Shown here: in pieces, positions 6,568-63,276 of the stretch
Position numbering within the stretch: position 1 is the first letter of the stretch
Layout of the letters: every line of letters begins with the position of its first letter
The notes under the pieces: generated by a model
Databases searched by the model: none
The model's input: only the letters and a program-made list of their open reading frames with translations
Told to the model about the DNA's origin: nothing
Program-made: the position numbers and the translations under genes
Assembly (NCBI GenBank): GCA_001986395.2
Contig: MQVO02000008.1
Coordinates: 1 to 64,000, forward strand
DNA: 64,000 nucleotides
Reading direction: 5' to 3'
Origin: Irpex lacteus
Lineage: Eukaryota; Basidiomycota; Agaricomycetes; Polyporales; Irpicaceae

Positions 6568-6644
6568 TCTGAACACGCAGCATAGACGCACTGCCACAGC
6601 TTTCTTCACAACCACAACAACGAAAAGACCAACGCTTTCACAAC

Positions 6645-9600
6645 ATGAGTCAACCGCCACGAGGCAGAGGAAGGGGTAGGGGACGTGGGGGTCCTGGATC
6701 GGACGTGAGCTCGACGAGCTCTCGAGGTGGTCCGGCTGGCGGACGTGGTGGTGGCCCTCCAGGTGGATTCAGAGGTGGCCCTGGAGGTCGTGGGGGCGGT
6801 GGTCCGCCTGGCGGTTTCAGACCCCGTGGAGGGCCGCCACCAACCGTATTCGCCGCGGGAACACCGGCGACTCCCGGTTCTCATCTCACTGACCTCGACA
6901 ATCTCGTTAACTCCTTCCGTAACCTTCAAGTTACTCCGGAGAGTCCCCTCAGACCTGGCTACGGAACAGCCGGCAGACCCATCAGTCTTCGGGCCAACTT
7001 CTTCTCCCTGCGGCTTCCGAAAAAAATGCTGCTCTACGACTACGAAGTAAAGATCACACCAGACGACGTCCGAGGCCCTCGTAAGACGCGAATTTTCGAA
7101 CTACTCGAAGGTAGTTCGGAATGCGCGCCCTACGCGAGTTTCATTGCGCATGACTCCAGTCAGAGGATCGTGTCCACCCGCCAACTCCCCCAGCCACTCC
7201 AAGTTACCATCACCTATACCGATCCTGGCCAAACTCAACCGGCGACTGGCATTCCCGTCTATACCGTGAAGGTGAACTTTGTCAGAGCACTGAATCTTGA
7301 TGATATGATGTCGTATGTATCTCATAACGTCTTAGAATCTCGCACGATGCTCACAACTCTCGCAGCCATTTGGGCGGCCAGCAGCGGGACTTCGATAATG
7401 GTCCTTTCGTCAGCGCCATGAACCTTATACTCCAGAAGCAGATCACCGGTGTCATTACGCAGTCGAATGCGGTCAAATTGGGGCAGAATAAGTACTTCAA
7501 CCTTGCGCAGCCGAGTTTCCCACTGTCATTAGGCCTCGAGGCCCGTCGTGGCTACTTTATGTCGGTCCGTCCGATGTATAAGCAGCTGATGGTAAACGTC
7601 AACGTTTGTATGGCCGCCTTCTACACTCCTGGGAACATGGCAGATGCCATGTTCGAGTTTGAACGCCAGACGGGTGGTATGCCCTCGCAGTTTGTGCAGA
7701 GGTTGAAGGTTGTGACAACCCATCTCGGCTACCCGAGGAAGCGAGCGATTTTACGCATCATGGGAACCAATCCGCGCCAGGAGAGTTTCCCGTGTGCAGA
7801 GCTCGGCGGAACCGTAACGGTCGAGCAGTACTTCCAGCGAAGTAAGTCCGCCTCTCTTCGCGAATTTGTGATCTCACTAATGGACAACTCTAGAGTACAA
7901 CATCCGCTTGCGGTACGCCGACAAGCTACCTGTCATCGACGTCGGCACGAAGGACAAGCCTAACTACCTTCCGCCCGAAATCTGCAATATCTTTCCCGGT
8001 CAGCCGTACCGTGGTGAGCTGCCGCCAGATGCAACTCGCAGCATGATCGAGGTCGCATGTAACCAACCAGCCGAGAACGCTAACTGGATCGTGAACGAGG
8101 GTCTTCCCTTCCTTGGGTTAAAGACGAACACCGCCACGCTCGGCAGCTTCGGCGTGACCGTGTCGCCAGACATGGCCGTAGTGCCCGCTCGTATCCTCCC
8201 TCCTCCACAGGTGACCTACGCTTCTGGTCGCCCGCCTAACGTCAAGGACGCGTCGTGGAACATTTTGGACGTGAAGTTCCACAAGGGCGGGAATATGACC
8301 AACTGGGCCGTCCTCCTCGTTCAGGACGGCGGTCGAGGCGAATTCTCCGGCGTCGACGATCAGCAGTTGAGGAGCTTCCTCCAGACGTTCATGGCTAAGT
8401 GCAGGAACAGCGGACTTACTGTTGCTAATGGCTTACCCACGATCATGGCGACTCCGCGTTTGCCTCGCTCAAACCAGGACCCAGGCAGAAGAAGAGCCAT
8501 GGAGAGCATTCGCCAGACGATCACCGCAAATTTGAGACCTGCTCAGAAGCCTAGTTTCATCCTCGTTCTTCTGTCTGGCGAAGACAAATTTATCTACCCT
8601 GGCATTAAGCGGCTCTGCGACATGACGCTGGGCTTGCAGACTGTGTTCATGCTCCTCTTACCCAAGAAAGCTGGCGTCCAGGACCCACGGAAGCTCGACC
8701 AGTATTTCTCTAATGTTTGCTTGAAGGTGAACGCCAAGCTCGGCGGCATTAACCATCTGCTGCGGGATGACCCTACGATGAGGTGGCTGAAGTCCAAGAA
8801 GACGATGCTGATGGGCGTGGACGTCACCCACCCTTCGCCGTTGAGTACGAAAGGCACGCCGTCGATCGTTGCTGTCGTAGCGAGTGTGGACGACGACTTC
8901 GTGCAGTATCCTGCGAGTCTGGGGCTGCAGCGTAACAGGAATATCTCCAGGGACTCCGAAGAGGTAACTCAATTTGCATCTATCATCGTAGACGATTAGC
9001 GAGCTGATCTATGTTCGTTAGATGGTACAAGAGCTGACGTCGATGGTCGCCGAGCGACTGATCTCATACGAGAAGAAATCGAAGAAATTACCGGAGAGGC
9101 TTATCGTCTTCCGTGACGGTGTGTCCGAAGTATGTTCCAAGCCTTGTCATAATGATTCGCCTTGGCTGACGATGCGTATACCTCTAGGGCCAGTACAACC
9201 TTGTCATCGACAAGGAGCTACCACGCATCCTCGAAGCTTTCAAGAAGTTCGACACCAAGGCTCGAGGAGGCAAATATCGTCCCGAGGTCTCTATCATCGT
9301 CTGCGGCAAACGTCACCACGCGAGGTTCCCAGCGACTGCCACAGACCATATGGTGTCGAATAATGGAAATACCGTCCCCGGTACCGTCGTCGACAAGGGC
9401 GTGACGGCGATCTATAATCACGATTTCTATCTCCAGGTATGTTGCATACCAATCCTGATTCTCTGACACGGGTGCTTACTACCGGTCGTCTCATCCTCTT
9501 GTCATGTAGGCACACAACGGCTTGAAAGGAACAGTCAAACCAACGCACTACTACGTCGTCTACGACGAAATCAAGATCCCCGCCGACACCCTTCAAGGTC

Positions 9601-25541: not shown

Positions 25542-28500
25542 ATGCCCAAACTACTGCAGTTATGTGCATCCGATGGCAGTGATACTACTCAAACTCGTGC
25601 GGATGACTTCAAATTTGATGCGAGGGGACAGCCGTCGCATGAGCCTGGGAAGTTTGAGGGCACACAGGTGAGTTGGTACTGTATGGCATTATATGACACA
25701 CCACATACTCAACGTCTTCTGCATGCTAACCAGCTACGCCTCCTTGACGATGTGAACCCCTTCGCTGGAAACAGCCTTCCGCTTGATGCTCAAGCTAGCG
25801 CCCCACTCACAGGTGGTTGGGATGAACGCCGTGGATCTGTAAAGGTGTGTTACTGTTCAAGCTTGTACTCCCTGCATGACATCGCTTACACTCATCCGAC
25901 GTTAGTGTAACACGAAACCTCTTCATTGCAGTGACTCTCAAATGTCACAAATTAAAGCGGTCCATGATGACGGGCGTGCATTTGTAAGAACGTTCTCAAC
26001 GTCGGTGGTAGCGCAGCACTCGGCACAGAAGTTAGTTAAGGAACTATCGTTGGACGACACTTCTCTCGAGCAATTGGAGAGTAAATGGAGTGTCGCATGG
26101 TCAGACGAGTGGAAGGATCGTAAGGGACGCCGAATTGGTAGACGTGTTGTATATCAATGGTGAAATTTATCGTACATCGGTTGCGTATAATCCATTGTAC
26201 TTACGTGTTAATATTATCTCAAAGTGTATGCGGATACAGTACACAAGCGAGAGCAGGTCGGAAGCGGAAGCGGAAAAACGAGCAACAGCCTGAGATTGCT
26301 AACGCAGATTCGGGACGTGACGACGCTTCTCGGCGGGCAGCATACGATTACACAGGCTGCCTTGCCCACGCAGATGTAACCTACAAATACTCGGATGATG
26401 GAACGACCTCAATATGTCGTCTGGTCGGCTATCTCGAGCATAACGAATCATGCCGCGCCGCCAAACTCGTTCGAATTCCTGCTGTCCCTCTGCATACTCA
26501 TGTCGCGGAGGTAGCTGTACACCAACTTGGGAATGGTGCAGGGTACGTGCTTTCCTTGTCTCTACTTTCTCATCTGTGATATATCTTAGTGCTATACTCA
26601 TATGTAACCACGCAGTATTAATACGATACAGAGGACAAATCTCGACATGTTGAATAACCTCGCATACCAAGGGCAACTCACGGCAGACAACGCTACCATT
26701 AACCATCGCTATCAAATCCTGCCCTCCGATTTCAGTCGCCTCTACCGTCAGCATTATCGCAAGGCGTACGGAATCGATGTGAAGATCTCGCCCGAACATA
26801 ATGTCGATAATTGGCTCAATCCGCAGAGTATACAATTCAAGAAACATATCTACGACGCTGTCTTCCACTATCACGCTCGCACCGCCGCACATGAACGACT
26901 TAAGCTCTCGATTGCAACGGCCGAAATGAAGCAAGCTGCGTGGAAGTACTGTCATAAGAAGCAGCTGGTACTAGATGGTACCTTTGGACTTTGCACATCA
27001 CGACTCCTGTTGTGGATTGCGCTTGGTGTTGACGAGTCCGGTCACGGTGTCCCTGTGGCCATGTTCCTTTTTTCTGCGCCAACAGGAAACCGTGCAACAC
27101 ATGCGGGATACGACACCATCATTCTTACTGAGCTGCTTTCGGACTGGCAGACATGGATGGGTGCGAAGGACGGAGAGAGCTTCTGTCCACATGTCGCAAT
27201 CACAGACACGGACCTCAAAGAGCGTGGGGCCCTTCTGCGCGTATGGCCAGAGATAATCCTTTTGTTATGTAAGTTCCACGTTCGACAGTGCTGGACAAAC
27301 AAGCGGAAGTCCTGCCTGCCTCGTGGTGAATCATCTTGGCGGACGCATTTGAGCAATCGCTTTTTCGCACTAGAAGAAAGGTACGTGCAGCCTGTCGTCT
27401 TTCACTACCTTTTCACTGATTCCTGAAAATATCACAGTCTCTTGAATACGATTGACCACGGCGAGGCCCTGCAGATCATTGAGCGGACACGCGAAGGATG
27501 TCGCTTCCTTGCGCTCGACCGTGAGGGCAAGCCTTACGTAGAGGGTGTTGGAAAGTATCTGGACTACCTAGTAGCAACGTGGATGCCCAAAGATATGTGG
27601 GCAGGGTGGTCGCGCTTTGGACGGGACAAGGCTGCGCGATTACTTGACGTGCCCCTCGAAGGTATTATACCTACCACAAACCATCTAGAGTCACTCAACG
27701 GCAGCTTGAAGCGCAAGTATGTCCCTCAATGGCAGCACTCAGGACATCGACTACGCTTCGACATGCTTCTTTACCACCTCGTTTCGAGTATCATCCCTCA
27801 GATCTATGCTCAACGCCGTATGGTCACTCAGTATGCTGCCTGGAAATCACAAAGGTTTGGTGCTATACTCTCTGCATCATCGTCGGGATCCCAGTCAAGT
27901 AGGAAAGGCAAAATAGCAGCAATCTCAGGTTTAGCTACGACCACAGACCCACGTTTCGCTTGGTACATGGTGGATGAGCGCCGCGATGCAGATGCGCGTG
28001 CTATCTTCCTATCGCGACGTCTGGAACCGATCCCAAGTTCACGCCCATACGAGCTTTGGGCCCGCTGTCATTCCATGACAGATAACTCTCTCGTGTACTG
28101 GCTAACCTCTCATCCGACCGGCTCTGCCACTTGTACTTGCCCTGACTGGCTCTACCGTGGTGGTGCATGCAAACACATGCGTGCATTCAGGCTACTCATC
28201 GAAGAATGGATGCAATGCGGCCATCTCCTCCCTTCTTCCTTCCACTTCGCAGGGGATCTCGAAGAGGCCACGGAGATCGACGCACGAAATCGCGCATGGT
28301 ATGGTCAGTCATACGATAGAGAGGTAACTTCCCCACTCGTTGAGACAGGTCCGAGTCGAGGCACCGCTTCACAACCATCCAACTTAACCGCCAGTGTTCG
28401 TATGGATTCCCCGAGCTCGGCTGAACTCCCTGCACATATGCAATCTGCATCTACTATATCCGAGGGCGATACCACGTCGACAGCACTACCTCCACCCGCA

Positions 28501-29155
28501 CATATCCAGTCGACCTCCCTACTACAACTCGAGGGCGCACGAGCATCAGAGCTTCTGCAGCTTACCGGAGATGATTCCCTGTTGGAGTCTGCCAGTGATA
28601 CATCGAGTGAGAGCGAAACACCTGCCGCTGCCGATGCTACTGATATGGTAACTGTTTCGTACCGACTATAGGTTTATTGTCTACTAATAACTGTATCCTA
28701 TAGTCAATGAATGGCCTTAGAGCAGTTGAGCTCCAGCTGACAGATCGACTCGAGCATGACATATCAAAAGTTCTTCCAACACTCCATGGCATTGTCACTT
28801 ACCTCAAGGATCCACACTCAAGGACACATGTAATGCTAAATGCTGCACATATGTCGGAATTCAGAGAGGTCATATCTGAGATCGCTTTGCAGCTACCCGA
28901 CTCGGATGCATTCTGTCATGTATCGAAAATCGGTGAGATCTAAAACAGACTGATGTTTTAGTCACGAAAATGGTTGGCTAATATCTTGGGTACACAGAAA
29001 CCACTGTGCAGAAATATGCAATCTCAAGGCCGGTTACGCCAACCATAACTAACCTCAACACAGCCTCGCATAGGCCGTGGAATAATTTATCGAGATATCC
29101 TTCCACCTTCACCAGAGAAGCGGCAGAAGCGCAAGGACTCTCATAGTGTATTTTA
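25542..29155 (+). mobile_element. MULE-type transposase gene with DDE catalytic residues and SWIM zinc finger
   Basis: A multi-exon gene for a Mutator-like (MULE) transposase. The N-terminal exons (MPKLLQLCASDGSD onward) encode a region with basic stretch GRKRKRKNEQ and a Cys/His cluster (GCLAHADVTYKYSDDG, LEHNESC) like FAR1/WRKY-GCM1 DNA-binding fingers. The catalytic core has D in QLVLDGTFGLCTSRL, D in HVAITDTDLKERGALL with the usual FHVRQCW, and E in TTNHLESLNGSLKRKY. A SWIM finger follows: CTCPDWLYRGGACKHM (CxCx8CxH). A Ser-rich acidic tail, then PRIGRGIIYRDILPPSPEKR and the stop at 29155. Introns near 25670, 25850, 26160, 26540, 27383 and 28650 are in frame. I saw no frame break, so it may be a recent element or domesticated. 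I did not find terminal inverted repeats by eye. The first exon is uncertain. Confidence 0.8.
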
Positions 29156-36846: not shown

Positions 36847-39800
36847 CTACACCGCTCGGTCGTAAACCACCTGTCTCTCCGCCTCCGACGAGCCGCTTCC
36901 ACGAGAAGATGCCGACCTCGTATCACCACCAGCCCCATCCATCAACTGACTTAGATACAGCCTTGCACGCTCACAGGCGATGTCAGCGTAATACGCTGGC
37001 GGGACGAGGCTGACGCCTTTCGTAGCTCTGGCGTAAAGGTATGACAGATGGTGTGTGAGGCCTTGGAGTGTGTCTGCGGAAATGCCGATTTCGTCATGCA
37101 AGACGTCGTAATGTGTCGGACGAACAGTTCCTTGCAATCCATGGTGTGCCTAGTGAGAGATCGCCGGGTCGATCAGTATCGAATCCTGAAGAACGATGGA
37201 TAAGTATTACTCACCTGAAGATAAAAATCATGATTGTATATCGAGGTCACACCCCTGTCGACGACGGTACCAGGCAAGGTGTTCCCATTCCTCGTCATGT
37301 CGCCGGGGGCTGTCGCAGGAAACCTCGAGTGGTGGCGTTTACCGCAGATGATGATAGAGACCTGGGGCCGATACTCCTCATGTCTGTTCTTGGTGTTGAG
37401 TTTCTTGAACGCATCGAGGATACGAGGGAGCTCCTTCTCGCGAACGAGGTCGCGTTGACCCTGGGAATCATGTCAAGCGGTAGTAAGCATGAGTCTTATG
37501 GGTCGAACAATAACAAGCCTCACCTCGGACACACCGTCTCTGTAAACGATAAGCCTCTCAGGTAGCGCTCCCATTGTCTTCTCGTATGCGACCAGTCGCT
37601 CCGTGATCATTTTTGTGAGCTCTTGGACCATCTACAAAGCGATTGAGTACTCCGTCAGCTCAACGAATCCAACACGCCTCAACGAGAATCCGTCTCACCT
37701 CCTCCGAGTTCCTTTGGAGGTTCCTATTTCTCTGAAGTCCAAGACTCGCCGGGAACTGCACGAAATCATCGTCCACGCTCGCTACGACAGCAACAATTGA
37801 CGGCGTCCCCTTCGTACTCAATGGGGAAGGATGGGTGACGTCCACTCCCACCAACATGGTCTTCTTCTCCTTCAACCACCGGATCATAGCGTCATCCTTC
37901 AAAAGATGGTTGACGCCTCCGAGCTTGGCGTTAACCTTCAGACAGACATTGGAAAAGTACTGGTCGAGCTTTTTCGGTTCTTTGACACCGGCTTTCTTAG
38001 GCGTGAGGAGCATGAAAACGGTGTGCAGACCGAGAGTCATGTCGCACAGACGTTTAATGCCGGGGTAGATGAACTTGTCTTCGCCGGAAAGGAGGACTAG
38101 TACGAAGCTCGGTTTCTTGTTGTTGGGCAGACGAGGCCTGTTCTCAAGCGTGTTACGAATGATCGTCAACGCACGTCTCCTTCCTGCATCACCGCGAAGA
38201 GCAGGTAAAGGTGGAGTGGTCAAGACAGGGGGTAGGTTGTTAGAGACGGTGAGCCCGCTGGCGCTACATTTGTTTATGAACGTCCGAAGGAAGGTCTTGA
38301 GTCGTGGATCGCGTTCGCCAGAGAACTCGCCCTGTCGACCCTCTTGTACAAGCAGGACAGCCCAGTCGGTCATATCGCCACCTTTGTGGAACTTCACATC
38401 CAGAATGTTCCACGACGCGTCCTTCACGGTGGGCGGGCGACCGCCGTTGTAGGTCACTTGTGGTGGTGTGAGGATGCGGCCAGAGATGTCAGTCATGTCG
38501 GGTGAGACGGTGACACCAAAGTTGCCCAGTGTCGTGGTGTCCGTCTTCAACCCGAGAAGCGGAAGACCGTCGTTAAGGATCCGGTTGGCATTGTCTGCCG
38601 GCGGGTTACAAGCTACCTTGATCATGTTGCGAGTTGCATCTGCAGACAGGTCGCCACGGTATGGCTGGCCTGGGAAGATGTAGCAGAGCTCTGGTGGGAG
38701 GAAGTTGGGCCTATCCTTCGTCCCGACATCGATGACGGGAAGTTTGTCGGCGTACTGCAATTGTATGTTGTATTCTAGAACCCGCACGCTATCAGAAAAA
38801 AAGAAGTATATGGAATGGTAAAGATACCTACTTCGCTGAAAATACTGTTCCACACTCACGGTCCCGCCAAGCTCCGCACAATGGAACGTCTGCTGGCGGG
38901 CGTTGGCCCCCGCGATACGAAGGACGGGGCGCCTCCTAGGATATCCAAGGTGACCCATCTGGACCTTCAACCTCTGCGCAAAGTGTGACGGCATAGCACC
39001 CATCTTCTCCCCGAACGCAAACATAGCTTGTGCCATGTTCCCTGGTGTGTAGAAGGCAGCCATACAAGCGTTGACGTTGACCATCAACTGCTTGTACATC
39101 GGACGAACCGACATAAAGTAACCTCGGCGCGCTTCGAGGCCCAGCTCGAGTGGCACACCAGGCTGGTTAAGGGAGAAATATTTATTTTGTCCGACACGGA
39201 CTGCGTTCTGTTGAGAGATATGCTTCTGAAACACGAGGTTCATCGCGCTGACGATGGGGCCGGTGTCAAACTCTCGCTGCTGTCCATTGAGATGTCTGTG
39301 ATGACGATCAGCGATCGGTAACAGTCAAAATACTTATGAAAATACTTGCGGTATCATCTCGTCGACATTGAGCGCCCTGACGAAATTTACTTTGACGGTG
39401 TACACTGGGGCTCCAGCCGCCGGTTGGGTTTGGCCACGTTCAGTATGAGTAACGAGAACCTCCAACGGCTGGGGGAGTTGCTGAGTCGAAACGATCCGTT
39501 GGCTGGAGTCATGCGCGATGGAGCTCAAGTAAGGCGAGCATTCCGAACTACATTCGAGTAGTTCGAAAATACGCGTCTTACGGGAGCTTCGAACGTCCTT
39601 CTCCGGCGTAATCTTCACCTCGTAGTCGTATAGGACCATTTGCTTTGGTAGTGTCACCGCGAAGAAGTTAGCTTTCAACTTGATTGGACGGCCGGCTGTA
39701 CCGAAGCCTGGTCTGAGGGGACTCTGGTTGCTGTCCGCAGTGGCCTGTAGGCCGCGGAACGACTCGACGAGGGCGTCGAGGTCATCGACCTGGGGAGCCG

Positions 39801-39882
39801 GAGCTGGTGTAGCAGGTGGCCCTGCCACAGCTCCTCGCCGAGCAGGACGACCAGAGCCCTTCTTCCTTGGCTGTTGACTCAT
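36847..39882 (-). CDS. Argonaute protein, paralog 2, with premature stop removing the last 18 residues
   Basis: Collinear with the Argonaute at 6645-9857 and clearly its paralog, with five introns at the same places. The start MSQQPRKKGSGRPARRGA at 39882 has a short tail in place of the RGG region. N domain, PAZ (CAELGGTVSVEQYFQR, LPPELCYIFPGQPYRG), MID and PIWI (GVDVTHPSPLSTKG, YRDGVSEGQ, PPAYYADIACERARLYL) are intact, with the same D-E-D-D residues. Intron 1 (39296-39349) has a GC donor (GCAAGT). At 36847-36849 a TAG follows VYDRAV where paralog 1 has CAG; reading past it gives EWGSGVHDDLKGSMFYI and the ancestral TGA at 36793-36795, matching the paralog tail. The encoded protein is 909 residues instead of 927. 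The conserved C-terminus packs near the guide 5'-phosphate pocket in Argonaute structures, so loss may weaken guide binding. Confidence 0.93.
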
Positions 39883-39960
39883 GCTAGATATATGTTAGTT
39901 GTTCGATGGTGTTGGTTTGGGAAAAGATGCTGACGACGCGTCTAGGCTGCGCAACGAGCC

Positions 39961-43722: not shown

Positions 43723-45652
43723 TATGTTATGTTTGAATCGACGGAAGATAAAGTTGGTTGTGTTGTGTGGATGACTGAGAGTCGAGAGTGGGGAGTGTTT
43801 GAGAGATATGAAAGTGAGGATGAAAGAACAACGCACGGACCTGTATATATACCGCGTCAGCTAATGTTAATTGAACGATGACGTGGGTGTGGAGGGAGTG
43901 ACGAAGGGGCTCGAGCGTTCTGGCGCGCCCTTGTGCCTGCGGTGAATTGTGGCCATCTTTGGGATTTTGATCCTCGATTCCTGACAGCAGCTCCCCACCG
44001 TCATTTCCCGTGCTTGCTTTACCCCTTGGCCCACGGTCCGCGATGATGTCAGACTCTCAACTGGCCAAGAACGCGATATTGGCTGTTGGGCTCTGAGGTA
44101 ACTCCTTCGTAAATGCTTACGTAGGACAACTGAGATAGAAATGTTGTAGCCAGCAGTCCTCTTGCAAAGAACGGGTGTATTTGACGAGAGGTGCCGGTGA
44201 CGATGGAGTAAGGTGAGACGAAAGAGTTTGGAAGGAGTGCAGCTGAAACGGCGGATGTAAACGTGACATGACGTCACTGTGACGACGTGCTATGTGACAT
44301 ATGTCACACGCGATCGTTTACTTGAAGTTCGCGTCTTCCAGTCCTTCCCTAAACGTTGGACCTCACGATATCAACGTTAACTCTGCATAATACACGCAGG
44401 CTATGTCTTATGTACTGAGCGTTACGCGAAAGTATCGTCGAGAACACGCAGCAATCACCAAGGTTTGATAAGTAAGTACTTATGCTGTATGGCTAGCGAT
44501 CCCACACTTCCCAATCTCTTTTTTGTGCCATTAGATATACGTAGGATATACATCCTTCAGCGACCTCGATATTTCCCTCTGATATACTGTAGCCTTAGGT
44601 ATCTGGAGAGAGCGTCCAATAATCTCCACGCAACTTAACAAGGCTTGGCATCACGCGAACGTTCGGCACACCTTCCCCATGCGGCATCTATACGCACCTC
44701 AACGCCATCAAAAGATGGCCAATCACTAAAGTTTCCATCAACCAAAGCAACAACCGCCACAAGTTTACATATTCTACTTGCTACCACCACATTGTAGTCG
44801 TTATTCCGCCTATAACCCCCTCACGCGTGCACGACTAGCTCCATAGTCTACGTGGGTTCATTCACCATCGGATTGTGATGCATCGGTCGCTCTCAGTTTT
44901 CCTCCGCGAGAGGGAAGAACTCAGACCAAGAGTGGACGATGTCTATAAACCTTGCAGTATACACGACTCACACGATAGAAAACGTAATCAGCAGACAACC
45001 TTCATTTGATGATGTGCATCACAATTGATGCGGAGGCAACAGTCGCGTGGAAGCTGTGTTCCATCCCGTCCTCTAGCGTTCCGCGTTGTTTCACCGCAAA
45101 GCTGTACTCACATGTATCTGTGATCTTCAGCTCTTCATCCGCCGAACGACGAAGATCCGTGCCTGGGACCAAGAACATTGCTGCACATTCGGCGAGTTGC
45201 ATGGCCATGGTGGTGTTCACACTATTTCCCATGCCTCACAATTCGCGACAGGCGGGACGGTCATGGTTTCAGCTCTATATGGTCAGTATAACTCACTACC
45301 TTCTCCCCAGGCAGCTCGAAAATACTCAGGAGGATATCTCACTTTGCTTGGTAGGTTGTCACTGTGCTACACGGTATATATTGTATTAAGGGCATGATGC
45401 TGCATTGATGGCTTGCGCAACTGAGTTCAACGTTAACCTTGCACACGCGCTCCCCTACCGTTCAATTCGTAACCCAGTTCAATCGACATCCCATATCGCG
45501 CATGACGGTGACAAGGCGGGAGTACTAGTGACATCGCACAATCCCGATGCTGCGACCCCCATCAGCAACCGCCTTGTCGTCCCGAAGCTGTTTCATGCTT
45601 TTCAAAGTCTTGGCATGATCTGCCACCAGGGGCAAGTACTGTCCTGTCTGCG
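43723..45652. other. Intergenic, 1.9 kb
   Basis: No recognised gene. A minus-strand ATG frame at 45002-45232 (MGNSVNTTMAMQLAECAAMF) has no motif and is not supported further. Confidence 0.45.
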
Positions 45653-45660: not shown

Positions 45661-45979
45661 GGTGGTGCTGATCGTTCTCTTCTGGTTTTCTTCAGCCCCT
45701 TTCTCTTCAGTCTCGTTTTCGGTTTCGAGCCAACTTATCTTTTTAGCAGGTACTGGTTGGTAAGTTGAACTCCTCTATGCTCTACTATACACGTTTATAG
45801 ATCAACTGCTAACAACCTATTGCACTATGCTTGTTTCTGTAGCCTCGCTTTGACACCCAACTTTTCGTTTTCCCCTTTCACGAACCAACCCTTCGTTCAA
45901 TCTCCCACCGCCTAGTGCAACTCTACAGCTTCGCTCAAACAACTCCACCAAACTTACTCTCATTTACCTTACAATCACG

Positions 45980-47266
45980 ATGCGTGTCTCCACTGCCACA
46001 GCTCTTCTCGTCCTCGCCTCCGCCGCCTCCTACTCCGCTGCTCTGCCCATCGCCGCACCCTCCACCAACGATGTCGTCGCACGCAGTCCCGAGGACATAA
46101 ACTCCATCTTGGCTGCTCTCAGAGCCCACCCTGACATCCCTCTCGGCAGGCCTTTGAAGGTCGCTCGTGATGACCTCGAAGCACGCGATTTCTTCTCCGA
46201 CTTCGTGCAAGGCTTCAAGGAGGGCTTCACAGGCACTATCAAGACGCTCGGTCCCCTCGCCGTTGACTTGATCAAGCGAGAGGCTACGCCTGAGGACATC
46301 GATGCCATCCTTGCCGCACTCCGCGCTCATCCCGATATCCCTCTCGGTAGGCCTCTCAAGATCGCCCGCGATGACCTCGAGGCACGCGACTTCTTGTCGG
46401 ACTTCGTCCAGGGATTCAAGGAGGGATTCACTGGCACTATTGAGACCCTTGGTCCTCTCGCTGTCGACTTGATCAAACGAGACGACTTCGAGCTCATCGC
46501 TCGCGACTTCTTCTCCGATTTCGTGCAGGGCTTCAAGGAGGGCTTTACCGGCACCATTAAGACTCTCGGTCCCCTCGCTGTTGACCTCATCAAGAAGGAG
46601 GACGCTGAGCTCCTGGCTCGTGACTTCTTCTCCGACTTCGTTCAAGGATTCAAGGAGGGTTTCACTGGTACTATCAAGACTCTCGGCCCCCTTGCCGTGG
46701 ACTTGATCAAGCGTGAAGCCTCACCCGAGGACATCGACGCCATCTTGGCCGCTCTCCGCGCTCACCCCGATATTCCTCTCGGCAGACCCCTCAAGATTGC
46801 CCGTGATGACCTCGAGGCACGCGATTTCTTCTCCGACTTCGTGCAGGGCTTCAAGGAGGGCTTTACCGGCACGATTAAGACTCTCGGTCCCCTTGCTGTC
46901 GACTTGATCAAGAAGGAGGACTCTGAGCTCCTTGCTCGCGACTTCTTCTCCGACTTCGTTCAGGGATTCAAGGAGGGCTTCACCGGCACTATCAAGACGC
47001 TCGGCCCCCTCGCTGTCGATTTGATTAAGCGTGAGGCTTCCCCTGAGGATATTGATGCTATCCTTGCCGCCCTTCGGGCCCACCCCGACATTCCTCTCGG
47101 TAGGCCTCTTAAGATCGCCCGTGACGACCTCGAGGCGCGCGACTTCCTCTCTGACTTCGTTCAGGGATTCAAGGAAGGGTTCACCGGCACCATCAAGACT
47201 CTCGGCCCCCTTGCCGTGGACTTGATCAAGAAGGAGGACCTCGAGATCCTCGCCCGCGAATTGTGA
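45980..47266 (+). CDS. Secreted repeat protein with KR/KK sites, probable Kex2-processed peptide precursor
   Basis: A 428-residue single-exon protein. A signal peptide (MRVSTATALLVLASAASYSA) and a short pro-region lead to two interleaved repeat types. Type A, ILAALRAHPDIPLGRPLK, occurs four times (from residues 43, 110, 255, 361), preceded by SPED or TPED. Type B, SDFVQGFKEGFTGTI then TLGPLAVDLIK, occurs seven times. Each B unit ends with a dibasic pair: KR at 99-100, 166-167, 244-245, 350-351 and KK at 205-206, 311-312, 417-418, so spacing alternates between 67 (A+B) and 39 (B only) residues. Three KR sites are followed by EA, as in yeast alpha-factor precursor where Kex2 cuts after KR and Ste13 trims EA. 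There are no cysteines. The released B peptide, about 30 residues, would be amphipathic with several Phe. Role unknown: signal, surface-active or antimicrobial peptide are all possible. Confidence 0.88.
   Translation: MRVSTATALLVLASAASYSAALPIAAPSTNDVVARSPEDINSILAALRAHPDIPLGRPLKVARDDLEARDFFSDFVQGFKEGFTGTIKTLGPLAVDLIKREATPEDIDAILAALRAHPDIPLGRPLKIARDDLEARDFLSDFVQGFKEGFTGTIETLGPLAVDLIKRDDFELIARDFFSDFVQGFKEGFTGTIKTLGPLAVDLIKKEDAELLARDFFSDFVQGFKEGFTGTIKTLGPLAVDLIKREASPEDIDAILAALRAHPDIPLGRPLKIARDDLEARDFFSDFVQGFKEGFTGTIKTLGPLAVDLIKKEDSELLARDFFSDFVQGFKEGFTGTIKTLGPLAVDLIKREASPEDIDAILAALRAHPDIPLGRPLKIARDDLEARDFLSDFVQGFKEGFTGTIKTLGPLAVDLIKKEDLEILAREL
46187..47233 (+). repeat. Seven-copy coding tandem repeat (117 and 201 bp periods)
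   Basis: Copies differ at many third codon positions (for example GACTTCTTCTCCGACTTC against GACTTCTTGTCGGACTTC) while the peptide is almost unchanged, differing only at F/L after DF and K/E in TIKTL. This pattern points to selection on the peptide, not only recent homogenisation. Confidence 0.85.
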
Positions 47267-47741: not shown

Positions 47742-50700
47742 TCAATTCCGCGAGCAACATGCAGCATCACCATTGGGGAACGCTGGGCCACTACGCGTGT
47801 CATTGGCAGCAGGCACGTCCAACGCAGGGTTCTCTCTAAAGAAGTGAACAGGGCGGAAGAGTATATTCAAATTCTCCTGGGGCATGCTATAAAGAACGGC
47901 ATGTATTAAGTAAGATTGTACGCGAAATCAGCGAACTCAACTTACACGGGCCAATCCTCAGGTCTAGGAATATGTGTGATACCTGGGACAAGGACGCGGA
48001 AACGTCAACATTGGATGCCAAATAGGCTCGCAAACGGAACATACCAGCAGTGAGATAGACCAGAACATCCTCTCCCTCCAAACTCTCATCTTCGCCCTTC
48101 TCTACCCACCCAACGATCGACTCGTCCGGGGCCACCCTCGTACCCGGCACATACTTACCACTCGGCCACACTCTCGAGCCTTTGGGGCCCTCCTTATCCT
48201 TCACTACCCATAATGCCTTCTTCGTGAACCCAGCCCTCTGGACGATCCACGAATCTGGCCTCGCAAAGACAGGCGTCATCGTTCCTTTACTCATGATCGA
48301 GTAACTGGTAGGTTTGCCGCTCACGGGGTGCTTCCTGTTCGCGCTTGTGATTGACCACCTCCTATCCGTGCTCAAGTCAAAGTCGCGTCCACCTTCACGT
48401 TGCTTGATAATGGGCGTCGCACGCGTCGTGAACGCGTTACCGGCGAAGTTCTGCGGCGAACCGGTAGGCGCATCAGGGAGGGGTATGACATCGGTCTCGA
48501 CGACTGTGTTGGCGAGACCGTCGATCATGGGGTCGAGACGAACGGAGAAGATATGTTGGTGGTAGTGTGCGCTGACTCCGGGGGCAACGGTGGTAGCAAA
48601 GGGACTTGAACCGGGCGTCGCAGGGTCTTCAGCGTAGACCTGTAAGATACCCGTCAGACGGATTTCGAGTTCGATATTGCCGTCCTGGTAGAACCGGTAG
48701 TTAAAGATGTACTCTGAGAGAGGAGGAAAATTAGAGCTAACGCAGATTGTAGGAGGACACCAACGTACCGTAGTTTGCAAGGGTGCAGATCATCTGTACG
48801 ACAAGTCTTCGAGCGCGCACTGCATGGCCACGTCCGCCAACACGGAAGTCAGTATGTTTCCACAGCAGCCCAGCGTCCTCTTCATGAATACAGATGACAT
48901 TCTTGATAACGAAGGCGCTGCCGTCGTGCTTGGTAAATGCACCAGGCTACGAAGGAGAGACGAGTGCATGAGAACAGGTATTATAGCGACGAATCAAATG
49001 ATGAGATACCAAGTAGTGAATCTGACCGAGACAGTCACAGCCGATGCTTAGCTCGTTTGCCTGAGTTCCCATTCCATATTCGCCTCTGAAGTCAAATCGC
49101 ATCAGAAGATATACGGAGAGATAGAAGCTTGGAAACGCACGAATCAAACGCAAACTTCCTAGGATGAGGGTGCTCAGGTGCGCCGTATGGTACGACCATT
49201 TCCGCCAACGACAAACGGTACAGAATAGGACGGACGACGCCGTCATCATTATAGGTGACAGTAGACAGAACAATACCCTCGCGATGGTGGAACGCTAAAC
49301 ACCAGTTCGAATGAATATAGTACGGCAATAAAAGGGATGTGTATACTCACAGACATGGAACTTCCACTTCTGCCACTCAACTTCGTGTCCATTCACTTTG
49401 AAACTGACTCCTTCAGGTTGTACGACATGCAAAGGTTTCAAATCGTCCCTCTGTTTCCACTTCTTCTCTTCATGCTTGCCCTCCCCATTCACCGCGCCTT
49501 CAACCTCCTTATTCTTCTCGATCAGATCCGGCAAGAAGTCGTGTCTGGTCGAGGGAGGGGGTACGCGCTGTCTGTCGGCGGCCTTGAGTGGGTCGTCGGT
49601 CAGAGGGGGTGAGATAGTCGTTCCACTGGAGAGCTTCGAGAGACTGGAAGGAGTATTACTAGCAGGAGGCTTCGTGTAATGGGATGGGAAGTCGATATAG
49701 ATAACCTTCTGCGTAAGGGAGTCTACAACAGGGATGAAGTCCTATATATCATTGCCAAGGGTCATGAGCATTGACGAGCAATGACGTCGTAAGAGGAGAT
49801 GTGTACCATAGGGTGTGCGTACAGGTTCTCGTGTCTTCCAAATCTGGCGAAGAGCAGAGCTTGCTGGATGCGCTGTTTCTGCGGGAAGCGCGCATCGTAT
49901 CCTAGCACAAGTTCGTTCGAGTTAGAACAAGTAATGCAGCAGCCATCGAACAACACTTACCAATCGCCCAGCCATCTGCACAGAGCTGATCTCCTTCCAC
50001 ACCTATACGGTGGTGCGAAACCGTATCAGCAAAGGGATTCTCATCGGTCCCAAAACCAGAAGAGAAGGTACAGACCGACTTCCTTGGCCAATTTGATCAC
50101 CCTTTCGTCTTTCCTAATAATCTCCTCGCATTGCAACAGCTCTTCCACCGAGATCTGGGGCTGCACGCCGTCACCCAGCTTCTCGAGTGAGTCGACAGTC
50201 CAGGTGTCCTCTTTCAAGGAGAGAACTGCGTTATACGAATGTCTACAGTCATATAAAGATGGTGTAAAGGCATTGTCAGTATAAGCTGCCAAGCGAGAGG
50301 AAGAAAGACAAGGATAAGCACACACCCTGCCAGGACTTCGATAAACTATCCTCAATCGATTGAGATTTATTAGTACGGAGGCCAAACGCGTGATACTGGA
50401 GATGCTACTCACGTCGACCTCGGCCTTCCTCACTATCTCCTTCTTCTCCTCCGGTTTCTCGCCCGTCTTGAGCGGGATGCCGAGGTACGCCAAAACATCG
50501 CGTTTTGGTGCAGGGAGGAGCGCAATACTGATGAACCTAATGGCCCTGATCGACACATTCTCGCCGTTTACAGACGTTTGAGTCAAGACATGCTTGCGCG
50601 TAGTGAGGGATATGGCTACAATCTACACACCGCGCACCAGAGAATACATTTATATCGTGTGACAGACGGAGGAGAGGGTGATACATGACAAGTTAGCGTG

Positions 50701-55509: not shown

Positions 55510-56658
55510 ATGGCTTCTGCTCGTCCAGTGTTCGTTGTTGCAGGTGTCGGTGCCGGCTCCGGTGAGCACAATTTGGTTTGGGTACCTTTGGCACGCGGTC
55601 TAATAATCCCCTCTCAGGTACTGGCGCATCTGCAGCGTAAGTGTACATAGTAAGTAGCTTAAGTCCAACAACTCACGCGCACTATAGTCGTCTATTCGCC
55701 AAGAACGGCTATAAAGTAGCAGTTATCGCTCGTGGTGCTGACAGAGCCAAGAAACTTGCCGATGAAATCAACAGCTCAGGCGGCGAGGCGGCTGGGTTTG
55801 GAACCTCCGACTATGCTTACAAATCCATCCTCGCTGTATGGGACGAGATCAAATCGTTCAAGTGGCCTTCTTCACAGCAGCCTGCCCCGATCCGCGCAGC
55901 ATTGTGGAATGCTGGTAACTCAGTTTTCAGCCCCTTCTTGGATGTGACGGAAGACAATCTCAATCTATCACTCCAAAGCAACGTTCAGGGCCCATTTGCG
56001 TTCAGCCGTCAGGCAGTATTAACGTTTAGGGAGAACGAACCAGATGAACACGGCAAAAGAGGGGCGTTGCTGTTCACCGGTGCAACAGCGAGCACGAGAG
56101 GAAATACATGGACCAGTGCCGTCGCTGCTGGCAAGTTCGGCTTGCGATCGTTGAGCCAGAGTTTGGCAAAGGAGTTTGGCAAGGACAATATCCATGTGAG
56201 TCGATGGTCGTGAAGCAATATCTCACAGTGAAGACGAGCTAATATGTAATGTTTATCAGGTAGCTCATGCTATTATTGACGGAGGTATGCACTACGTCAT
56301 GTCCCAGGTATCGCAGACATCCTGAATGACATTTGAATCAGTAATTGCAACTGAGCGCACTACTGCCGTGGGGTCTTCCAATATACCTGAAGAGAAGTTC
56401 GAAGAGAGCAAGGGCGTTCGCCTGAACCCAGACAGCATAGCAGCAGTACGTTTCGCCAAGAGCAGTCATGTCAGCCACTTCACCCCAGCTGATCTACGCA
56501 CGTTGTCGTCAGGCCTATCTATACCTCGCGAACCAAGACCGATCAGCATGGACTTGGGAGCTTGACCGTGAGTGCCTTCTCTTAACGATAAGATCGTGCC
56601 AGTGTTAATAGCCCCAATACTGTCATCGCCAGTCCGTCCCTCTCACGAGAAGTGGTAA
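55510..56658 (+). CDS. SDR-fold protein 1 lacking the catalytic tyrosine
   Basis: Rossmann-fold protein of the short-chain dehydrogenase/reductase superfamily. MASARPVFVVAGVGAGSG, then across two short introns TGASAARLFAKNGYKVAVIA, give the glycine-rich nucleotide site, interrupted by introns exactly within GSG and SAA. Next are DEINSSGGEAAGF, IRAALWNAGNSVF, LSLQSNVQGPFAFSRQ, GALLFTGATASTRG, GKFGLRSLSQSLAKEFGKDN and HVAHAIIDG; the last exons read YLYLANQDRSAWTWELDLRP and HEKW. Classical SDRs have YxxxK; here the K of GKFGL is present but the position four residues before it is V. The Ser and Asn positions are kept. Three more copies lie at 60474-61662, 62137-63276 and from 63734. Whether it still reduces a substrate is open. 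Confidence 0.85.
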
Positions 56659-62136: not shown

Positions 62137-63276
62137 TCACCATGCCTCGTGAGCAGGTCGAACTGAAAGCAGTATGTATAAGCGAGTCTTACAAAATCCT
62201 GGGCTGAAAAGTACATACGGTCGAGCTCCCAAGTCCACGCTGATCTGTCCTGGTTCACGAGGAAAAGATACGTCTGTAAGCGAAACGTGCGTATTAGCAT
62301 GCAGCACCGTTTCATGAACACGTCGAGATGGACTTACGCTGGAGATACTATCTGGGTTCAAGCGAATGTCTTTGTTCTCTACGAACTCTTTCTTAGCCTG
62401 TTCTTCCGGCTGACGTGCGACTGCGATGTCCGTCAAAATCCCTGTCAATGAAAGACCATCAGTCAAAAGGTATGATGCCAAATCACAGCTAGCTTCTTAC
62501 GTCCGTCAATAATAGCATGAACGACCTATCGTGCATTGTGGTAAGCCGTACGACCTCCCAACGTGCTCATGACCGGAAGCTTTACTCACATGAATATTCT
62601 CTTTACCAAACTCTTGTGCTAGGCTCAGACTCAACGACCGTAATCCGAGTTTGCCAATAGCGAGTGCGGAGGTGTATGGGTTGCTCCTCCACGAGGCCGT
62701 CCCACCTGTGAAAAGCAGCGTCCCTCTCGCCCCATGTTCATCGACCTCATTCTCCTTGAACGTCAAAATAGCCTGCTGGCTGAACGCAAACGCGCCCTTA
62801 ATATTGCCCTCCAATGCTGCGTCCAGATCAGCTTCGGTATGGCCCAAGAATGGCTTGAACGCCCATCCTGCGGCATTCCACAACGCTACTCTGATCGGGG
62901 CGGGCTCTTGAGAAGAAGCCCATCTATGGGACTTGACCCGTTCCCATACAGCTGTAGTTGACTGAAAGTTATAATCACCACTACCAAAGCTGGCGGCTTC
63001 GCCACCTGCTGCGTTGATTTCATCGACGAGCTTCTTGGCGAGATCTGCGGTACGGCCTATGAGGGCTACCCTGTAGCCGGACGCTGCGAAGAGACGACTG
63101 AAGAGATCCGTCAGGCGTGACTCTGACGAGAGCATCGGAACGAACTCACGCAACGGATCCTCCGGTTCCTAAAAGGAATCATTTGAATGACATACTTGAC
63201 GGAAAAGTCCACATCGACACTCACCAGAGCCATCACCAACTCCTGCAATGACGAAAACGGGTTTCACTGTGGACAT
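62137..63276 (-). CDS. SDR-fold protein 3 lacking the catalytic tyrosine
   Basis: Paralog with the same exon plan. The start MSTVKPVFVIAGVGDGSG at 63276 is followed by TGGSVARLFAASGYRVALIG, DEINAAGGEAASFGSGDYNF, IRVALWNAAGWAFKPFLGHT, ALEGNIKGAFAFSQQAILTF, GTLLFTGGTASWRSNPYTS, ALAIGKLGLRSLSLSLAQEF, VVHAIIDGRILTDIAVARQP and YLFLVNQDRSAWTWELDLRP, ending AHEAW. At the Tyr position it has L; a Tyr in NPYTS is eight residues before the Lys, out of register. A TATAAAG lies about 87 bases upstream. It is 475 bases from SDR-2. Confidence 0.87.

Follow-up and report, generated by a model that had tools for sequence, protein, structure and literature searches.

A candidate KEX2-processed repeat protein of Irpex lacteus with seven near-identical copies of an acidic, amphipathic peptide

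Introduction

KEX2-processed repeat proteins (KEPs) are an abundant known class of fungal precursors, often with several types of repeat in one protein, and they represent an established way of making peptides in fungi. In the published survey, 7878 KEPs were found in 1345 of 1461 strains (PMC7329392). Basidiomycete KEPs with Ste13 signatures exist (PMC6339444) and some basidiomycete KEPs are apparently processed (PMC9769878). According to the latter work, KEP peptides were detected in Coprinopsis, Lentinula and two Pleurotus species, the knock-out of six kep genes gave no visible phenotype, and most fungal KEP peptides lack a described function despite their large numbers. In Ustilago maydis, repeats of 34–55 aa have been described for Rep1 and of 31–36 aa for Hum3 (PMC4617103).

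Here, a secreted-looking precursor of 428 aa from Irpex lacteus, encoded in a window of 64 kb (the whole stretch of DNA analyzed), is compared with these systems. Its most notable feature, as read from the DNA, appears to be the presence of near-randomized silent sites alongside a near-fixed peptide.

Results

Organization of the precursor

The precursor ORF (45980–47266, forward strand) is contained in a stop-to-stop frame of 470 codons (45854–47266), and tandem arrays with periods of 117, 435 and 318 nt (scores 407, 1260 and 1104) were detected in the gene. The N-terminus is hydrophobic, with a 9-residue Kyte-Doolittle mean of up to 2.44. The signal peptide proposed in the original prediction fits this profile, and its support is limited to hydropathy. 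Two interleaved types of repeat, A and B, were recovered in the numbers previously claimed, with the seven B units starting at residues 70, 137, 176, 215, 282, 321 and 388 and the four A units at residues 36, 103, 248 and 354. Between a VVAR-ending segment and a terminal spacer the units are ordered A1-B1, A2-B2, spacer-B3, spacer-B4, A3-B5, spacer-B6 and A4-B7 (Table 1).

Table 1. Features of the precursor gene and its upstream region, numbered along the window.
Feature	Position	Strand	Basis
TATAAA element resembling a TATA box, 327 bp ahead of the start codon	45653..45658	+	Pattern only
Probable 83-nt 5'-UTR intron (GTAAGT ... CTAAC ... TAG)	45760..45842	+	Inferred from splice-site sequence
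Signal-peptide-like N-terminus, about 22 residues (end about 46045)	45980..46045	+	Hydropathy; cleavage point inferred
Short N-terminal segment ending in VVAR	46046..46084	+	
A1 (SPEDIN...KVAR) with spacer DDLEAR	46085..46186	+	
B1 and KR	46187..46279	+	
EA and A2 (TPEDID...) with spacer DDLEAR	46280..46387	+	
B2 (F3L, K19E) and KR	46388..46480	+	
Short spacer DDFELIAR	46481..46504	+	
B3 and KK	46505..46597	+	
Short spacer EDAELLAR	46598..46621	+	
B4 and KR, commonest B form	46622..46714	+	
EA and A3 with spacer DDLEAR	46715..46822	+	
B5 and KK	46823..46915	+	
Short spacer EDSELLAR	46916..46939	+	
B6 and KR	46940..47032	+	
EA and A4 with spacer DDLEAR	47033..47140	+	
B7 (F3L) and KK	47141..47233	+	
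Terminal spacer EDLEILAREL and stop codon	47234..47266	+	

The B sequence is DF(F/L)SDFVQGFKEGFTGTI(K/E)TLGPLAVDLI, followed by KR in four copies and KK in three. Variation in the 29-residue core is confined to two positions (F3L in B2 and B7, K19E in B2); outside the core, the dibasic pair varies at its second residue. The commonest form, DFFSDFVQGFKEGFTGTIKTLGPLAVDLI, has 29 residues and a monoisotopic mass of 3161.63. The A sequence is (S/T)PEDI(D/N)(A/S)ILAALRAHPDIPLGRPLK(I/V)AR, followed by DDLEAR.

Predicted cleavage sites and processing enzymes

A dibasic pair follows every B unit (7 of 7), as had been claimed, with KR at residues 99, 166, 244 and 350 and KK at residues 205, 311 and 417. 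EA stands directly after the KR sites of B1, B4 and B6, again as predicted, so that KR-EA-(S/T)P is found ahead of A2, A3 and A4; A1 is preceded by VVAR and not by KR. Additionally, a motif absent from the original prediction, L-x-A-R, precedes all seven B units (LEAR four times, LLAR twice and LIAR once). Each B is thus bracketed on both sides, since it has L-x-A-R before it and a dibasic pair after it. Ahead of three of the B units, A is replaced by eight-residue acidic spacers (DDFELIAR, EDAELLAR and EDSELLAR) whose middle varies while the acidic start and the A-R end are kept, a pattern of the kind expected for protease sites.

The residues around these sites were compared with the known preferences of the protease. 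Kex2 substrates are reported to favour acidic P1' and P2' residues (PMC2515848) and an aliphatic P4, and an extended LxxR motif serves for site prediction (PMC8528282). In the precursor, P1' is acidic at 19 of the 20 predicted cut sites (seven dibasic, eight [LV]xAR and five other AR) versus 7 of the 25 other K/R residues, the first residues of the seven dibasic pairs being excluded from the count; all seven of the latter cases are GFK|E inside B. For this comparison the Fisher P (4e-6) is descriptive only and overstated, because the copies are related by descent and not independent. KK is listed among the processing sites of KEPs and products possibly cut after a single Arg have been reported (PMC9769878). 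A review describes P1 Arg as invariant for Kex2 (PMC8528282), which speaks against cleavage at the three KK sites.

Genes for candidate processing enzymes were detected in the same genome. At one locus the catalytic segment matches yeast kexin (PDB 1ot5, E 1.5e-71), and this locus (L002) is the only one of three candidates with a P-domain match over the cut-off. A DPPIV_N gene of the DPPIV family (Ste13-type) was found in two pieces, the larger of which contains one stop that may correspond to an intron. The S10 carboxypeptidases gave 58 matches in the genome, counted exon by exon, with Kex1 not singled out among them.

A KEP is characterized by an N-terminal signal sequence, with which the hydropathy of the precursor agrees, and by three or more near-identical repeats separated by Kex2 sites; here, seven B and four A units were found, with one dibasic pair per B. 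The Kex2-type reading of the original prediction gains support from the bracketed units, the hydropathy and the kexin gene, and the precursor is very probably a KEP that would be processed into B peptides. In the route proposed, the precursor would be secreted and processed in the Golgi. Kexin would cut after KR, possibly with lower efficiency at KK, and also after L-x-A-R, setting the N-terminus of B. A Kex1-type carboxypeptidase would then remove the trailing basic residues, and a Ste13-type peptidase may strip EA and SP/TP off A. The output would be seven copies of the 29-residue B and up to four A peptides. Against this scheme, the KK sites are doubtful, and both the cutting at L-x-A-R and the release of the peptides are predictions.

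Silent-site divergence between copies

When the 21 pairs of B copies were pooled, pS was 0.580 and pN 0.031, and the corresponding values for the six pairs of A copies were 0.617 and 0.056. The dN/dS comparison suggested with the original prediction, run here as pS and pN, gives a pN/pS of 0.05 for B and 0.09 for A; the constraint on A thus comes close to that on B, and the claimed silent divergence between near-identical peptides was borne out for both units. The codon differences were also compared with those expected for independent draws from the codon usage of the gene itself. In the columns identical in all copies, 41% of the codon pairs differed in B (44% expected) and 44% in A (51% expected). 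Counted pairwise, the differences were 40% in B (43% expected) and 46% in A (51% expected).

The control consisted of seven polyubiquitin stretches, each 67 codons or longer, from the same genome; four lie on contig C54 and three on C165, and all were taken from 26 ubiquitin-family matches. The codon difference was 33% on C54 (36% expected) and 49% on C165 (48% expected), and three of the four C54 stretches were more alike (24–27%). The B copies differed by a mean of 14.6 nt versus 16.3 nt in the simulation (P 0.057), and the B3-B5 (0.19) and B4-B7 (0.24) pairs lay well below the expected codon difference. The simulation of the B copies gave no sign of selection for silent divergence beyond equilibrium. 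The silent memory among the copies is nearly gone, perhaps not wholly, and some shared silent states may remain.

Silent sites this close to equilibrium led to the rejection of recent duplication and of gene conversion as causes of the peptide identity. The repeats evolve much like the polyubiquitin of the same genome, the units being old and selection apparently acting to preserve each of them. The view that selection acts on the released product is consequently favoured by both pS/pN and codon randomization, with the release itself being predicted.

Properties and structure models of the B and A peptides

The trimmed B peptide (29 residues, average mass 3163.6) has a pI of 4.2, a charge of -2 and no Cys, and the translation contains no Tyr in B or A. 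Its helical hydrophobic moment at 100 degrees is 0.411 versus a shuffle mean of 0.151 (P 0.0016), rising to 0.487 in the first 22 residues (P 0.0002). At 160, 170 and 180 degrees the moment of B is 0.061, 0.103 and 0.271, and the periodicity is thus alpha and not beta, since it is high at 100 degrees and lower at 160–180 degrees. B would therefore be an acidic, Phe-rich peptide, strongly amphipathic as a helix. The amphipathicity of A was not significant against shuffles (hydrophobic moment, P 0.28).

A 106-residue module modelled by single-sequence AlphaFold2 showed long helices over both of its B units with a weak pLDDT of 60.2, and the full-length mature precursor, modelled in the same way, gave a still weaker result (pLDDT 48.2, pTM 0.23) in which a bend splits B into shorter helices. 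A PDB fold search was made with the module model only; it returned nothing at E≤0.001 and two matches at E≤10. Both models are too weak to decide on an intact globular fold.

Searches for relatives

Sequence searches of the precursor in Pfam, NCBIfam and PDB gave nothing credible. Pfam returned 26 families at E≤10, and two of the best 25 of these 26 exceeded their cut-offs: MinC_N (28.1 versus 27.3 bits, with three stretches passing singly) and DUF3206 (24.1 versus 23.7 bits). Neither was accepted as the identity of the protein, both being read as weak matches summed over near-identical copies. NCBIfam gave nine families at E≤1, none at its own cut-off. The whole precursor had one PDB match by sequence (E 0.18), and B alone had none at E≤10. 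In its own assembly the precursor had no paralogue besides its own gene at E≤0.001, and all eight matches of the 67-aa B-A unit at E≤10 were the gene itself. The viral and prokaryote collections contained 2 and 19 pattern-matching stretches, respectively, none confirmed as a relative.

Six peptide sequence words were present in no paper of the literature searched, a scope outside which the supplementary KEP tables lie, and the literature searches found nothing on this peptide. The original prediction regarded the peptide as unrecognized and possibly new: the class is known and named, and the peptide would be new only in the sense of being unmatched in the literature words, Pfam, NCBIfam and PDB.

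Genomic context

Between position 45641 and the start codon the only ATGs are at 45777 and 45827, both within the intron-like stretch. Codon usage in the precursor gene was compared with that in six further open stretches from elsewhere in the window, a set that may include some non-coding sequence. For TTC, AAG, GAG and CTC the bias was stronger than in these stretches. TTC was used in 32 of 34 cases (58–77% in the others), AAG in 26 of 27, GAG in 23 of 27 and CTC in 32 of 55 (at most 40% in the others); the GAC and ATC biases were no stronger than in one or more of these stretches. GC3 was 0.71 versus 0.54–0.69. This codon bias suggests high expression of the precursor gene.

Downstream of and convergent with the precursor gene, pieces of a copper amine oxidase gene were found at 47887–49741 (reverse strand), and the five small ORFs of the upstream flank had no Pfam match. 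Elsewhere in the window, two Argonaute genes were detected, at 6573–8999 (forward strand) and 37660–39894 (reverse strand), with ArgoN, linker, PAZ, Mid and Piwi matches in pieces. At 26608–28671 (forward strand), an ORF with a MULE transposase domain is directly followed by a SWIM zinc finger ORF, and the two are probably a Mutator-like element. Short-chain dehydrogenase matches were observed at 55641–56213 (forward strand) and 62506–63168 (reverse strand). Outside the window, two pairs of UstYa matches (G000 C241:41892-47735 and C307:657558-663413) have near-equal scores, equal frame lengths and mirrored order; they are perhaps a duplicated cluster or an allelic one assembled separately.

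Discussion

The precursor predicts a sharply defined product, with likely cut sites flanking every copy and predictable masses. Deletion of the gene should be informative because no paralogue was detected in its own assembly. The contrast between silent sites and peptide, which matches that of polyubiquitin, suggests, on the basis of a single genome, that every copy is visible to selection. Such a within-gene contrast may be used for ranking orphan KEPs for experiment.

The function tentatively favoured for B, over a signal or a membrane-active peptide, is that of a self-assembling surface-active helix acting in high dose at hyphal surfaces or interfaces; this is possible, and well short of probable. 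The role would be akin to the one Rep1 has in Ustilago, except that the periodicity of B is alpha-helical. Counting against it, the genome has 18 hydrophobin matches, and for this reason a repellent is not needed as a hydrophobin replacement. The net charge of -2 and the bend in B in the weak full-length model also count against it. Moreover, A is almost as strongly constrained as B yet not significantly amphipathic, and the surfactant model leaves this unexplained.

Somewhat less likely, B or A could be secreted as a signal, much as alpha-factor is, with its receptor in the fungus itself, another fungus or a host. The repeats would then raise the dose, EA/SP would be Ste13 trimming signals and the fit between ligand and receptor would keep the units identical. 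The KR-EA-(S/T)P leaders before A2, A3 and A4, the near-fixed unit sequence and the DPPIV_N gene agree with this, as do the basidiomycete KEPs with Ste13 signatures, some of them apparently processed (PMC6339444, PMC9769878). The leader is nevertheless found ahead of A only, B following L-x-A-R; at 29 residues B exceeds the 9–24 aa class of alpha-pheromones (PMC6339444), and a ligand needs no amphipathicity over its whole length.

It is also conceivable, though rather doubtful, that B defends the fungus against competitors or predators by acting on their membranes, into which its amphipathic helix, hinged at Gly-Pro, would insert. The significant alpha-helical moment of B would suit this role, and so would the helices that the 106-residue model predicts (pLDDT about 60) across both B units. 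Most lytic peptides are cationic, whereas B has a net charge of -2 and a pI of 4.2. Candidalysin is a known cytolytic KEP peptide, but the synthetic KEP peptides reported as tested had no antibacterial activity (PMC9769878).

In a more speculative and similarly unlikely proposal, the Cys-free, acidic, alpha-helical B would self-assemble at the hyphal surface or in target membranes, with A as a co-released partner. Each of the seven copies would be held to a single sequence, since assembly would be poisoned by a variant subunit, and A might act, in a fixed 4:7 ratio, as a solubilizer or as the second half of a two-peptide system. If true, this would be a case of polyubiquitin-like evolution within a peptide precursor.

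That the precursor instead stays intact and acts in the cell wall or matrix as a helical repeat protein, with the basic sites as exposed uncut linkers, seems improbable. Helices are predicted over much of the chain at low confidence, and A is conserved nearly as well as B. Set against this, no compact fold was obtained from the single sequence (a weak model, mean pLDDT 48.2, pTM 0.23), the 106-residue module matched no PDB fold at E≤0.001, the spacers vary in their middle part while keeping their acidic start and A-R end, and the spacing of the units along the precursor is irregular.

A dikaritin core contains Tyr for cyclization. The core described for dikaritins is EDYXI (PMC6339444). A dikaritin-type RiPP with cores cyclized by UstYa/UstYb oxidases has a similar precursor layout, and the genome has ten UstYa matches, but this identity is hardly credible and was rejected because no UstYa/DUF3328 gene is nearby (none of the ten matches in the window, three on the same contig with the nearest about 1.27 Mb off, and none in 30 ORF segments of the window scanned with Pfam, i.e. 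20 of its 45 ORFs of at least 150 codons and 10 shorter ones) and because B and A have neither Tyr nor Cys, as the original prediction had stated for B.

Returning to the precursor as a KEP, its comparison with the known systems is as follows. It shares with ascomycete alpha-factor precursors the KR-EA and XP dipeptides, and differs from them in that this Ste13 XA/XP signature stands before A2–A4 only, with none ahead of B, and in that B is above alpha-pheromone size. The peptides of Candida albicans Ece1, the candidalysin precursor, are similar in length to B. Ece1 also combines repeats with Kex2 sites (PMC2515848, PMC9769878); compared by description, its seven repeats are less conserved (PMC2515848), whereas those of the precursor are near-identical and B is acidic. 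With the basidiomycete KEPs described, the precursor has in common near-identical repeats separated by KR or KK and a signal-like start (PMC6339444, PMC7329392, PMC9769878). Like some of them it carries EA/XP Ste13 signatures and like many it has more than one type of repeat, and it departs from them in the length of B (29 aa, above the commonest class of 9–24 aa) and in the additional L-x-A-R on the N-terminal side of B. The nearest systems in kind are Rep1 and Hum3 of U. maydis, with many amphipathic repeats, similar in length to those here, and Kex2 sites between them (PMC4617103); the amphipathicity was found here for B and was not significant for A. The precursor has neither the long terminal fragment of Rep1 nor the hydrophobin domain of Hum3, and while Rep1 peptides form amyloid-like fibrils, the periodicity of B is alpha-helical. 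Compared by description, the repeats of Rep1 and Hum3 are imperfect, whereas those of the I. lacteus precursor are near-identical and belong to two interleaved types.
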